DNA of 64,000 bases, from NCBI GenBank assembly GCA_034190085.1, contig JAXHTS010000083.1, positions 1 to 64,000 on the forward strand, read 5' to 3'. Made by a program: the position numbers and the translations under genes. Source of the stretch: Spirochaetota bacterium. Its GTDB lineage: Bacteria > Spirochaetota > UBA4802 > JAFGDQ01. The notes under the pieces were generated by a model, which worked only from the letters and a program-made list of their open reading frames with translations, was not told the origin of the DNA and searched no databases. Shown here piece by piece: positions 2,771 through 64,000 of the stretch; position 1 is the first letter of the stretch; each line of letters opens with the position of its first letter.

Positions 2771-4321
2771 TTACGCAGGTTTAATAAAAGTCTTCTTTTT
2801 AGGCAATTCCTCCTGTTTGTTCATTGTAGCTTGAATTGCCTTTATAATCTTTGAACGAGTATCTCGAGGATCAATAGCATCATGTATCATATAATAGGAT
2901 GTCCAGAACTTTGAAAGAAACATAACATTCATATGCTCCCTTATAGCGCTCACATAGGCATTATAGAGTTCATCATAATTCCCCTGCTCTCTTGCCTTAT
3001 CAAGCTCCTTATGAAAAACAGCCTGGACTATCGCCTCAGGTCCTGTAGGTGCAAACTCTCCCGTAGGCCATCCGTATACAAAATCGGGATGCATTTGAGA
3101 ACAACCCATTACAATATTTGCGCCTCCATAGGCCCTTCTCAATACAATTGTAATTTTTTGATTTGTTAGATGCGAATAGGAATGTAAATTTTTAGCTCCA
3201 TGCCTGATTATTCCCAGTCTTTCCCATTTATCACCTGGAACATAAGCGGTTGAATCCACCATAGTAATGAGTGGTATATTAAAGGCATCCAAAAAATTTA
3301 TAAAACGATCATATTTATCTGAGGAGTCAATCTCAAAAACACCGCTCATCTCTTCAGGATTGTTTGCTGCAATACCAGCGACATGTCCCCCAAATCTGGC
3401 AAAGCCTATTACCATATGAGAGGCAAAATCTTCCTTCAATTCAAAGAATTCACCATTATCCACAATCTTCTCAATTATCTCATGAATATCATATGTGTAC
3501 TTCGGATCATCCGGCATAACATCAAGTAGTTCCTCATCCCGTCTCATGTGATCATCGCCAGTGTCCTTATAAGCCGGCTTTTCCCAGCAACTCTGTGGCA
3601 AATAATCGAGTAACTCCTTAGCTTTATCAATCGCATCTTCATCATCACTAGCTATCAGATCACATTGACCGCTCTTCTTCATATGAAAATCAGCCAATCC
3701 CGCCTCCTTAGACTCAATCTCTCCACCCAACCATAAAAATCCGGTCTTCTCGTTAATAATCAAGAAATCCGACAATGCAGGCAGGGAGGCTACTGTGCCT
3801 GTACAAGGGCCTAATAAAAGCATTATCCTTGGAACAACGCCGGAATAGAGACAATAATTTCTAATAAGCCGGCCCAACGCATTTAATCCGCTATCTCCAC
3901 CCTTAATGCTGAATCTTTCACCAGCAGAATCCATAATTCCTATTAGCGGCATCCTTCTCAATCCTGCAATCTGGATTAACTCAGCCAGCTTCCATGCTGC
4001 CTGATCGCTGATTGAGCCGGACATTATAGTAAAATCCATGGAAAACAGCATTATAGGACGACCATTGACCTTTCCCGAGCCTATAATTACCCCATCTGCC
4101 GGGCTTGGTCTATCCTTACCGTCATAGGGCGGCCGCATATCCCTCACTAAAGACCCAATCTCCTCAAAGGTTCCATCATCGAGGAGTCGATCAATCCTCT
4201 CCCTGGCAGTGAGTTTGCCTAGCGAGTGCTGTACATCTATGCGCTCCTGTCCGCCGCCCTTAATATTTTCCAAACGATTAACTTCAAGTTTCTCTAGATA
4301 CTTATCCATCCACTCACCCAT
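2771..4321 (-). CDS. Acyl-CoA carboxylase/decarboxylase carboxyltransferase subunit (paralogue B)
   Basis: 516-residue carboxyltransferase of the PccB/MmdA family, first gene of a tandem pair. It has ARERIDRLLDDGTF near residue 40, the N-half loop DSAGER (131-136) and a canonical C-half AYGGA loop (397-401), so both oxyanion-forming loops look intact, unlike its downstream partner. It ends with the usual DPRDTRSKII segment. Full length for the family (about 510-520). The upstream SD GGAGAT sits a few nt before the ATG. The tandem paralogues suggest a heteromeric carboxyltransferase, as known for some actinobacterial acyl-CoA carboxylases; substrate choice (propionyl-, methylmalonyl-, glutaconyl-CoA or another) cannot be read from the sequence. 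Confidence 0.9.
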   Translation of the reverse strand: MGEWMDKYLEKLEVNRLENIKGGGQERIDVQHSLGKLTARERIDRLLDDGTFEEIGSLVRDMRPPYDGKDRPSPADGVIIGSGKVNGRPIMLFSMDFTIMSGSISDQAAWKLAELIQIAGLRRMPLIGIMDSAGERFSIKGGDSGLNALGRLIRNYCLYSGVVPRIMLLLGPCTGTVASLPALSDFLIINEKTGFLWLGGEIESKEAGLADFHMKKSGQCDLIASDDEDAIDKAKELLDYLPQSCWEKPAYKDTGDDHMRRDEELLDVMPDDPKYTYDIHEIIEKIVDNGEFFELKEDFASHMVIGFARFGGHVAGIAANNPEEMSGVFEIDSSDKYDRFINFLDAFNIPLITMVDSTAYVPGDKWERLGIIRHGAKNLHSYSHLTNQKITIVLRRAYGGANIVMGCSQMHPDFVYGWPTGEFAPTGPEAIVQAVFHKELDKAREQGNYDELYNAYVSAIREHMNVMFLSKFWTSYYMIHDAIDPRDTRSKIIKAIQATMNKQEELPKKKTFIKPA

Positions 4322-17136: not shown

Positions 17137-18216
17137 TTACTCACTGCTGTCATCATACACATTCAACAGTTTGTATATCTCCCATAGCGAGTAAAAGAGT
17201 ACGAGTAAAATAGGTCCAATTATTAAACCAGGCAGATTAAATGCCTGAATACTCCCGAGTAGCAAAAAGAAGAATAACAAAGGGTGAAAATTCAGCGTAG
17301 TACCGAAAAACTTTGGTTTAAAAAGATTCTCCAGTGTAATATACCAGAATAGACACCATGTTCCCATTAATATAGCATATAGGTACTCACCTATTACTAA
17401 AAGATAGACGCAAGCAGGTATCCAAACAAAAGCAGTGCTCACAATTGGAATCAAAGAAAACACTGCAGCAATGCTTCCCGCTAAAAGGGACATCCCAATT
17501 CCAAATAGATAAAAGGCTAATCCTACTGCCAGTCCCTGTAGAAACATTACCAACATATTTCCAGCAATAAGAATCTTGATTACCTGCTTTAATCTCTCAA
17601 TAATGTCTTTTTCAATATCTTCAGGAAAGGGTAATATACTATATAATGATTCTTCAAGTCTGTAACCATCCTTGAATAAAAAAAATAGAATAAGAAGCAT
17701 AAAAAAAATGTTAATTGATAACCTTATTGAAAAGGTTAAAACAGTTGTTATATTAGAAAATATTTGTAGAGAGGATTTCTGTAAAAAGTTTATCACTTCT
17801 TGTAATATTCTGCTCTCTTCAATATTAAAAAAAGAAAAAATGGTTTTAGTGATATCGCTTTTTTTTATAAAATCATTAATGAAGGCAATATTAATTTTTT
17901 GATGAAGGAACAGATAAAATTCATAAAACTGATCAGCCAATGAAAGCATGATGAAAAAGAGAGGTATAAGAACAATCATAAAGAGGAAAATGGTTACGAG
18001 CAGGGAGCCTATGAGTCTATTTTTTATATATTTTGTTACCCAATCATAAACTGGTCTTAAGGCGATATAAAATATGCATGCAAAGATAAACGGCCAAAAG
18101 AATACACGATAAATATATATTAATGAAAATGTTACGATGAAGAATATAATAAGGAAGAGTATTGTTAATTTCTTATTCTGTTTTAAAGTAGTAAAAGAAT
18201 CCCTTTTTTCTATCAT
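17137..18216 (-). CDS. AI-2E family transporter (PerM-like membrane protein)
   Basis: 359-residue polytopic membrane protein. The pattern of hydrophobic segments, with an N-terminal FWPFIFACIFYIALRP, a central amphipathic stretch, then LAGSIAAVFSLIPIVSTAFVW and PGLIIGPILLVLFYSLW near the end, is that of the AI-2E/UPF0118 family. Members export AI-2 or act as Na+/H+ antiporters, so the cargo is uncertain. The start has no evident SD. Base composition is very AT-rich. It stands alone between two intergenic regions. Confidence 0.85.
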   Translation of the reverse strand: MIEKRDSFTTLKQNKKLTILFLIIFFIVTFSLIYIYRVFFWPFIFACIFYIALRPVYDWVTKYIKNRLIGSLLVTIFLFMIVLIPLFFIMLSLADQFYEFYLFLHQKINIAFINDFIKKSDITKTIFSFFNIEESRILQEVINFLQKSSLQIFSNITTVLTFSIRLSINIFFMLLILFFLFKDGYRLEESLYSILPFPEDIEKDIIERLKQVIKILIAGNMLVMFLQGLAVGLAFYLFGIGMSLLAGSIAAVFSLIPIVSTAFVWIPACVYLLVIGEYLYAILMGTWCLFWYITLENLFKPKFFGTTLNFHPLLFFFLLLGSIQAFNLPGLIIGPILLVLFYSLWEIYKLLNVYDDSSE

Positions 18217-62104: not shown

Positions 62105-62911
62105 TCAGCCCTTTACTATATCATCAATATCAATTAGAACCCTAAGCAGATTCTCCAGTTTATCAAGATAATATTGGTTCGATGCATCGCAGAGGGCATC
62201 ATCCGGAGAGGTATGAACCTCCATAAAAAGGCCATCGATCCCTGCTGCCACGGCGCTTCGTGCCAATATTGGCACATACTCCCGCTCCCCGCCAGAAACT
62301 CTGCCGCCTCCAGGTAATTGAGTAGAATGCGTAGCATCAAAGATCACAGGCGATCCAAGGGATCGGACAATCTCAAAGGACCGCATGTCCACCACAAGAT
62401 TGTTATAACCAAAAGTGTATCCCCTTTCAGTCACAGCATAACTATTGCAGCCCGAATGCCTTAATTTATCTATTATATTTGAGACATCGCCAGGAGCGAT
62501 AAACTGACCCTTCTTCACATTCACAGGTCTTCCGCTCTTGCCAGCCTTAAGGATTAAATCCGTCTGTCTGCATAGAAAAGCCGGTATCTGCAATAGATCA
62601 ATTACACCGCTTACTGATGATATCTCCTCCACAGTATGGACATCAGCAGTTATCTGTATTCCAAGTCGCTCCTTCACCTCCTCAAGGACCCTAAGGCCCT
62701 CTTCCAATCCAGGTCCTCGATAGGAGTCAATTGAACTCCTATTCGCCTTATCAAAGGAGGACTTAAATATGAAAAACAGGCCTAATCTCTCTGCTATACC
62801 CTTTAACTCCTCAGCCAACCTCAAGGTCCTATCCATTGTCTCTATCACACATGGACCAGCTATAAAAAAGAAACGCTGTTTACCAGTAATGTCATAACCA
62901 CAAATATCCAT
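62105..62911 (-). CDS. kdsA: 3-deoxy-8-phosphooctulonate synthase (metal-dependent type)
   Basis: 268 residues. It condenses arabinose 5-phosphate and PEP to KDO-8-phosphate for LPS core synthesis. Landmarks are IAGPCVIE, FKSSFDKANRSS, GIQITADVH, LQIPAFLCRQTDL, TERGYTFGYNNLVVDMR and FDATHS. Cys21 in GPCVIE is the metal ligand of the metallo-KdsA class (E. coli has Asn there). AGAGGA lies 5 nt before the ATG. In many genomes pyrG precedes kdsA directly; here an Abi-alpha gene and an attC-like site lie between. Confidence 0.96.
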   Translation of the reverse strand: MDICGYDITGKQRFFFIAGPCVIETMDRTLRLAEELKGIAERLGLFFIFKSSFDKANRSSIDSYRGPGLEEGLRVLEEVKERLGIQITADVHTVEEISSVSGVIDLLQIPAFLCRQTDLILKAGKSGRPVNVKKGQFIAPGDVSNIIDKLRHSGCNSYAVTERGYTFGYNNLVVDMRSFEIVRSLGSPVIFDATHSTQLPGGGRVSGGEREYVPILARSAVAAGIDGLFMEVHTSPDDALCDASNQYYLDKLENLLRVLIDIDDIVKG

Positions 62912-62943: not shown

Positions 62944-63037
62944 ATATACCGCTTAAGCTAACCTGCACGCCACCGAAGTAAATCCCACGAAGTGGCCAAA
63001 GGAACCTCTTCGTGTCAGGTTGAGCGCATGGTTATGC
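62944..63037 (-). repeat. attC-like recombination site (integron cassette end)
   Basis: Read on the minus strand, 94 nt. R''-like GCATAAC (63037-63031), 5-nt spacer CATGC, L'' GCTCAACC (63025-63018), an imperfect hairpin arm TGACACGAAG, the loop region, the return arm CGTGCA, L' GGTTAGC (62963-62957), a 6-nt spacer, and an R'-like GGTATAT (62950-62944). L'' and L' pair with a single extra C in L'', the extrahelical base typical of attC. R' departs from GTTRRRY (GGT for GTT). It begins 13 nt after the Abi-alpha stop, as expected for a gene cassette. Confidence 0.65.
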
Positions 63038-63050
63038 GATTTTTTGTTAT

Positions 63051-63773
63051 TTATTGGCTAACAGCAGATAAAAATGTGTTCCCTGCATTAGTTCTATAAA
63101 AAAGTGTAACTTTATCTTCTTTTCTATATTGCCCCTCTTGGGTGCCTAAAATGTCAGCAAATTTAAACTCAAGAAGTAGAACACAGGAGTAATCCCACTT
63201 ATTTAGTATCTCTTCTCCTGAATTTCTTACCCAGTATTTAAAAGAGTCATCTGAATTGGTGATGTAGCGACCACCATTTTCTCCTATTTTTTCTATCGGT
63301 AACAGCGACAGGAGCAACTTAGCCTCTGATGGACTAAAGTGTGGTAATATTTCTACAAAATGAGGATGAAAGTTAATATTTGTCAATTGGTCGGCCAATA
63401 GGTTTGTCCACATTTCATGTAAGGTAGGATCCGTTTCTTTCGATGCCTCCTCGATTGATTTTATAAAACTTTTTTCATGTATAGGTTTGATAATTTTAGT
63501 ACCACTTGTTTTGCATTTGGATTCAGCCTTACCAATAGCGCTTTGGATTGAGTTAGTGGCAAGCGCCTTCTCTACTTCAACCATGTTGTCAAACTTTTGG
63601 CGAATATAACGTCCAAACCCACTCGTAGTCTCTGTAATTGGAGCTGTCAGTTTCTTGAAGATTTCAATGACTGACGAAGCACTGTGGATGTATACTTCTG
63701 GAGGTATTGCTTTCGCTACTTTGCCAACCCCAGCAAGATCCAAACCATCACTATTTTTATCATCAGTACTCAT
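63051..63773 (-). CDS. Abi-alpha (DUF4393) family abortive-infection-like protein
   Basis: 240 residues. The pattern of the Abi_alpha/DUF4393 family is seen: an N-terminal helix with AKAIPPEVYIHSASSVIEIFKKL, a middle region with SFIKSIEEASKETDPTLHEMWTNLLADQL, and HFVEILPHFSPSEAKLLLSL. No TM helix is evident. Members sit among phage-defence genes and are thought to act in abortive infection; the mechanism is unknown. No SD precedes the ATG. It is a lone gene between pyrG and kdsA and is followed by an attC-like site, so it looks like an acquired cassette. Confidence 0.78.
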   Translation of the reverse strand: MSTDDKNSDGLDLAGVGKVAKAIPPEVYIHSASSVIEIFKKLTAPITETTSGFGRYIRQKFDNMVEVEKALATNSIQSAIGKAESKCKTSGTKIIKPIHEKSFIKSIEEASKETDPTLHEMWTNLLADQLTNINFHPHFVEILPHFSPSEAKLLLSLLPIEKIGENGGRYITNSDDSFKYWVRNSGEEILNKWDYSCVLLLEFKFADILGTQEGQYRKEDKVTLFYRTNAGNTFLSAVSQ

Positions 63774-63859
63774 TTTTTATTTACGCATAATATTATATTA
63801 TATAGACAAGAATAATAACCATAGGTAATATATAAGCCTTAACAATTATTCATAGAATT

Positions 63860-64000
63860 CTACTCTTTGTGTAGTTCTATAGAAACCCTGATAAAATCAC
63901 GAAACAAAGGGTGTGGTTTTGTGGGTTTTGATTTAAATTCAGGATGGAATTGGGTTCCCAAAAACCAGGGATGCTCTCTTAACTCAACGGTCTCTATCAG
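63860..64000 (-). CDS. pyrG: CTP synthase, C-terminal end (cut by the window edge)
   Basis: Only the last 46 codons are visible. They read [15 protein letters not shown], holding the catalytic His-Pro-Glu of the glutamine amidotransferase domain, then PHPLFRDFI and the stop TAG at 63862-63860. CTP synthase aminates UTP with glutamine nitrogen. The pyrG-kdsA neighbourhood is a known arrangement. Confidence 0.93.

Follow-up and report, generated by a model that had tools for sequence, protein, structure and literature searches.

How did an Abi_alpha gene (family formerly DUF4393) and an attC-like element come to lie between pyrG and kdsA in a spirochaete? In the window, i.e. the whole 64,000-nucleotide stretch analysed, the order on the minus strand is pyrG, the Abi_alpha ORF, the attC-like element, kdsA and then lptC-, lptA-, lptB- and rpoN-like genes (Table 1). 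The last four were named by position and sequence look, Pfam having been run on the Abi_alpha ORF and kdsA only. A previous sequence-only reading had proposed a solitary integron-type cassette at this place. Our analysis indicates, with a probability of about 0.83, that the locus is a single integron gene cassette, composed of Abi_alpha and its attC, which entered ordinary chromosomal DNA between pyrG and kdsA. The proposal is supported by the cassette ends, by the fold of the rejoined site and by homologous cassettes in integron arrays.

Table 1. Features of the pyrG-kdsA region (window coordinates)
Feature	Position	Strand	Remarks
kdsA	62105..62911	-	Pfam DAHP_synth_1; downstream neighbour, 38 nt past the cassette
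Right junction, G/GTATAT	62944..62950	-	Terminal G of the cassette, then presumed target DNA; R' would be GTTRRRY
attC-like element, 94 nt	62944..63037	-	R'' begins 13 nt past the Abi_alpha stop
Whole integrated cassette, 841 bp	62950..63790	-	TTATGCG (63790-63784) to ...TTAAGCG (last base 62950)
L' box CAGGTTAGC	62957..62965	-	Layout, fold, L-arm search
L'' box GCT[C]AACCTG	63016..63025	-	Bulged C = extrahelical G on the bottom strand; spirochaete attC L boxes
R'' box CGCATAAC	63031..63038	-	Rejoined fold; identical R'' in Vibrio cassette
Abi_alpha ORF, 240 aa	63051..63773	-	Pfam PF14337; PADLOC; homologues 52-65% identical
Cassette 5' end, TTATGCG	63784..63790	-	Post-crossover half of own R' box, complementary to R''
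pyrG 3' end	63860..64000	-	Upstream neighbour, 69 nt ahead of the cassette

The assignment of the ORF to the Abi-alpha family and its lack of a Shine-Dalgarno sequence (ATAAAAAATG) were both borne out: it scored 47.4 bits with the Pfam profile, above the curated cut-off of 29. Weaker matches were obtained with PADLOC PDC-S47 (6e-7) and phrog_2232, and the predicted structure of the protein was too poor for use (mean pLDDT of 50). The AbiAlpha/DUF4393 protein of Enterococcus faecalis was shown by experiment to be an abortive-infection protein, which makes cells lyse prematurely, with loss of phage progeny (PMC6356687). The link to that protein is the family profile, matched over ~70 residues only, and not close identity. 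By family membership, the product of the cassette gene probably acts in abortive infection.

The element located behind the gene reads R'' GCATAAC, CATGC (5 nt), L'' GCT[C]AACCTG, a central region, L' CAGGTTAGC, TTAAGC (6 nt) and GGTATAT. Its distance to the ORF, length, order of boxes, 5- and 6-nt spacers and one-base bulge in the L pair are all as previously described. That layout had been called the hallmark of attC sites; by itself it is not rare, and what stands out is the sequence of the L arms. The bare layout (AAC, a spacer, a 3-1-6 bulged arm and its exact partner) gave 11 matches in the window, versus ~5 per 64 kb in shuffled sequence. In contrast, the L-arm pair CAACCTGAC...GCAGGTTA, with 30-60 nt between the arms, has a single occurrence in the window and none in 100 shuffles. 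Real spirochaete attCs carry such L arms, e.g. ACCTAACACCCGCTTCAACCTGACATTGC...GCAGGTTAAGCGAATGTTAGAC. The R'' box GCATAAC departs from the RYYYAAC consensus at the third base, and the same heptamer is found in true spirochaete and Vibrio attCs. For R' (consensus GTTRRRY), the integrated form has GGTATAT, while rejoining the cassette ends yields GTTATGC.

Scoring with an attC covariance model had been suggested as a check, and the scores did not reach significance. We built two models from 19 spirochaete attCs, the second of them without R'. With the first, the site obtained 9.7 bits (E of 0.17 in 1 kb), and with the second 13.6 bits (E of 0.42 in 64 kb), the second-best score in the window. 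Genuine Vibrio attCs reach only 15-17 bits on the model without R', and hence the covariance test is weak for sites outside its seed. A small palindrome at 17712-17753 of the window (minus strand) scored 14.0 bits on this half-attC model and so ranks just ahead of the cassette site; it has the look of a chance hairpin. A search of Rfam gave no match, and BLAST with the element found no second copy.

The ends of the cassette are more telling. In an integron cassette, opening of the circle takes place inside R', at G^TT, and R'' therefore pairs with the cassette's own 5' start. Here, the heptamer TTATGCG, 17 nt ahead of the Abi_alpha ATG, is the exact complement (7/7 bases) of R'' CGCATAA, which delimits the cassette to the 841 bp given in Table 1. 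As a control, we examined 31 cassettes in five spirochaete arrays. Their own starts agree with their own R'' boxes at 3.87 of the 4 variable bases (26/31 being perfect), whereas the R' and R'' boxes of one integrated site agree at only 2.84/4. The complementary start had gone unnoticed in the sequence-only reading, and thus the observation is confirmed on stronger grounds than those originally given. That reading had also supposed that R' has lost its GTT. This part is not upheld: R' has not been mutated away, since its second half sits intact at the opposite end of the cassette and the sequence after the terminal G is host DNA.

With the ends rejoined, the R stem comprises 8 bp in the centroid fold of the bottom strand (z of -2.9), and 3+6 bp form an L stem interrupted by one extrahelical G. 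The spacers, 6 and 5 nt long, are unpaired, and the tip is variable. The L-box stem and bulge are thus present in the rejoined site; the R stem is absent in the fold of the integrated form. The base preceding the left crossover is an A, where a G is expected.

We then looked at homologues of the Abi_alpha protein. Among 393 Spirochaetota genomes, it was found in only two, the cassette-bearing genome and that of Alkalispirochaeta alkalica DSM 8900. In the latter, the homologue (52-53% identical) is located directly between attCs of 86 and 90 bits. The Vibrio atypicus homologue (53%) follows a Vibrio-type attC; it starts with GTTATGCGTAAAA and has CGCATAAC behind it, and the ends of this cassette (GTTATGCGTAAA and CGCATAAC) are those of the spirochaete cassette. 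In a Chromatiales metagenome-assembled genome (MAG), the homologue (65%; L121, 2227) has a cassette-like start, GTTATGCG, and adjoins an apaH-like gene; neither an R'' box nor CGCATAAC was found anywhere in that locus. The homologue of a Flavobacteriaceae MAG (L125, ~2958-3900) is flanked by complementary ends, TTGTGCATA before the ORF and TATGCACAAC after it, with a long, strong attC-like hairpin (z of -4.2 with the ends rejoined). It is possibly a second solitary cassette; there too an A precedes the crossover, which makes two observations only. The Shewanella homologue lies between holC-like and valS-like genes in a locus with no visible attC. A search for true integron integrases (IntI) was positive for the Vibrio, Chromatiales and Alkalispirochaeta genomes and negative for those of Shewanella and the Flavobacteriaceae MAG. 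Our searches of plasmids, phages and viral contigs yielded no homologue. We tentatively suggest that one family of defence cassettes might repeatedly leave integrons and settle in unrelated bacterial chromosomes as expressible single genes. If true, cassettes escaping to housekeeping operons would be a normal way in which permanent immunity genes are seeded by integrons.

Comparison with related genomes agrees with the view that a tight pyrG-kdsA-lpt cluster is interrupted here. The pyrG-kdsA gap is 952 nt in the cassette-bearing genome. In most relatives with the pair, the two genes overlap or are separated by tens of nt (~20-45 nt in many spirochaetes; an ATGA overlap in spirochaete genome G003). 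The gap is larger in a few other spirochaetes. The 665-nt gap of L141 holds an ordinary ORF, CBS-domain-like by eye, and we did not retain it as a comparable cassette. Within the locus read, the two nearest relatives do not have pyrG ahead of kdsA. The kdsA of the nearest relative is 71% identical, and the junctions of the relatives are too diverged for a base-level comparison with an empty site. The Abi_alpha gene is missing from this position in all relatives examined. The insertion left 69 nt of intergenic DNA on the pyrG side and 38 nt on the kdsA side, and the operon direction is kept. The end of contig C83 (L018 14963-15345) contains a short tandem repeat, open in several frames on both strands and GQSSPYL-like.

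A search of the genome for intI and similar attCs qualified the statement that the cassette lacks a local integrase. There is none beside the cassette, but the genome encodes a true IntI elsewhere, the nearest one being on contig C54. It scored 409.9 bits (cut-off of 265), harbours the R, HxxRH and Y residues and the IntI-specific insert, and looks intact. Its gene is located 710 nt from the end of the contig, and hence the assembly may have missed an array. The ~250 nt between intI and the neighbouring gene downstream contain no attC. As to an array belonging to the genome's own integron, our models and patterns, which scored part of the candidates, detected no second attC among those scored. 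At the C54 end, intI is accompanied by the beginning of a gene for an MntA-like nucleotidyltransferase (L010 206-410), which at 27.3 bits stays under the family cut-off and may belong to a toxin-antitoxin cassette. Across the 393 Spirochaetota genomes, high-scoring integron integrases (E <= 1e-70) are present in 54 genomes from 31 genera, with 52/54 over the family cut-off. This is far more than the single spirochaete genus with an integron integrase named in a 2013 paper (PMC3607928).

The cassette thus delimited consists of one short ORF followed by an attC, with no other mobility gene inside, and its junctions lie at the cassette crossover and are flanked on either side by non-att DNA, as in attG-type integration. 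We propose that the folded attC bottom strand of a circular cassette recombined with a non-att chromosomal site through the action of an integron integrase, plausibly the genome's own IntI or that of an earlier host. The circle would have been opened at G^TTATGCG, which would place the TTATGCG half on the pyrG side and the part running from R''-L'' to L', the spacer and G on the kdsA side. The host DNA GTATAT would then take the place of the remaining R'. The altered R' is what one would expect from a non-att insertion, since the cassette has kept its own R' half intact at the opposite end. As the Abi_alpha gene is in the operon direction, it could be transcribed with pyrG-kdsA-lpt instead of from the integron Pc promoter.

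Other origins were considered. An integron or attC cluster may once have occupied the pyrG-kdsA junction, with all cassettes but one deleted since. A lone attC can indeed come from cluster decay, and the A before the crossover could trace a deletion at the left end. However, the pyrG side has no R' G, attI or second attC, the contig has no integrase near the site, and the short flanking intergenic segments, like the lack of another attC among the candidates scored, also argue against a former array; we regard it as unlikely. Delivery by illegitimate or homologous recombination or by another mobile element, with the cassette ends kept by coincidence, would accommodate the unexpected A, as well as the related genes in the two genomes in which IntI was not found. 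Yet such mechanisms would not respect the crossover base of the cassette end, on which the left junction lies exactly, and the right junction also fits; we regard a route other than an integron integrase as quite improbable.

The palindrome might also be a chance inverted repeat, or a terminator, beside an ordinary horizontally acquired gene. This would be in keeping with the frequency of bare layouts in shuffled sequence and with the non-significant covariance scores. Nevertheless, a chance origin of the element is excluded by its L arms, which are those of real spirochaete attCs and did not arise in the shuffles, by the position of R'' 13 nt after the stop codon, by the complementary 7-mer at the cassette start and by the homologous true cassettes with the same ends. 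As to a terminator, the long stem is not followed by a T run on the strand of the gene; the sole terminator-like match, with a stem of 5 bp, lies on the plus strand, and we rejected that interpretation. Altogether, this last explanation is very improbable.

The locus thus looks like a natural capture of a cassette by ordinary chromosomal DNA rather than an integron array, because both the recombination site and the exact cassette ends are readable. Natural insertions with both ends readable are useful, as they show what is kept. The placement of a likely phage-defence gene in a housekeeping operon would solve the silence of cassettes far from the integron promoter. Moreover, the Abi_alpha family, known from prophages, is now tied to integrons of several phyla.

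Insertion of cassettes outside integrons has reportedly been demonstrated in the laboratory, and Loot et al. (2024) are said to have described the attG route, by which cassettes are inserted into the genome at non-att sites. Integration of the attG type is cited in PMC12901181 and PMC11023631. The locus described here shares with it the joining of a cassette to non-att chromosomal DNA at its own attC crossover. It differs in appearing to be a natural, spirochaete case, probably with a different IntI, and in the A as the pre-crossover base. It also resembles a SALIN, i.e. a single cassette with one attC and no integrase gene nearby (definition in PMC12690207; see also PMC9024848), as both have one cassette and one attC away from any integrase gene. 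In contrast with SALINs, the spirochaete cassette has readable insertion ends inside a housekeeping operon, with IntI on another contig.

It is established that integron cassettes of Vibrio can have anti-phage activity (reviewed in PMC12409362), and phage-defence cassettes of chromosomal and mobile integrons were described by Darracq 2025 and Kieffer 2025, according to that review. The spirochaete locus has in common with these a small defence-type gene as a single cassette, whereas it lies outside any array, belongs to the Abi_alpha family and has a predicted defence role. The chromosomal integrons of Treponema (PMC3607928) share with it the phylum and the attC L boxes; unlike this solitary cassette, they are many-cassette arrays beside intI. 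With AbiAlpha of E. faecalis V583 prophage 6 (PMC6356687), the likeness is that of Pfam family and single-gene organization, the former being a prophage gene of a Gram-positive bacterium and the spirochaete one a cassette gene. Thus, the locus is of a known kind, a solitary attC cassette (SALIN) inserted in the attG manner, and what is new are its readable ends, its host group, its location in an operon and the Abi_alpha family as a cassette.
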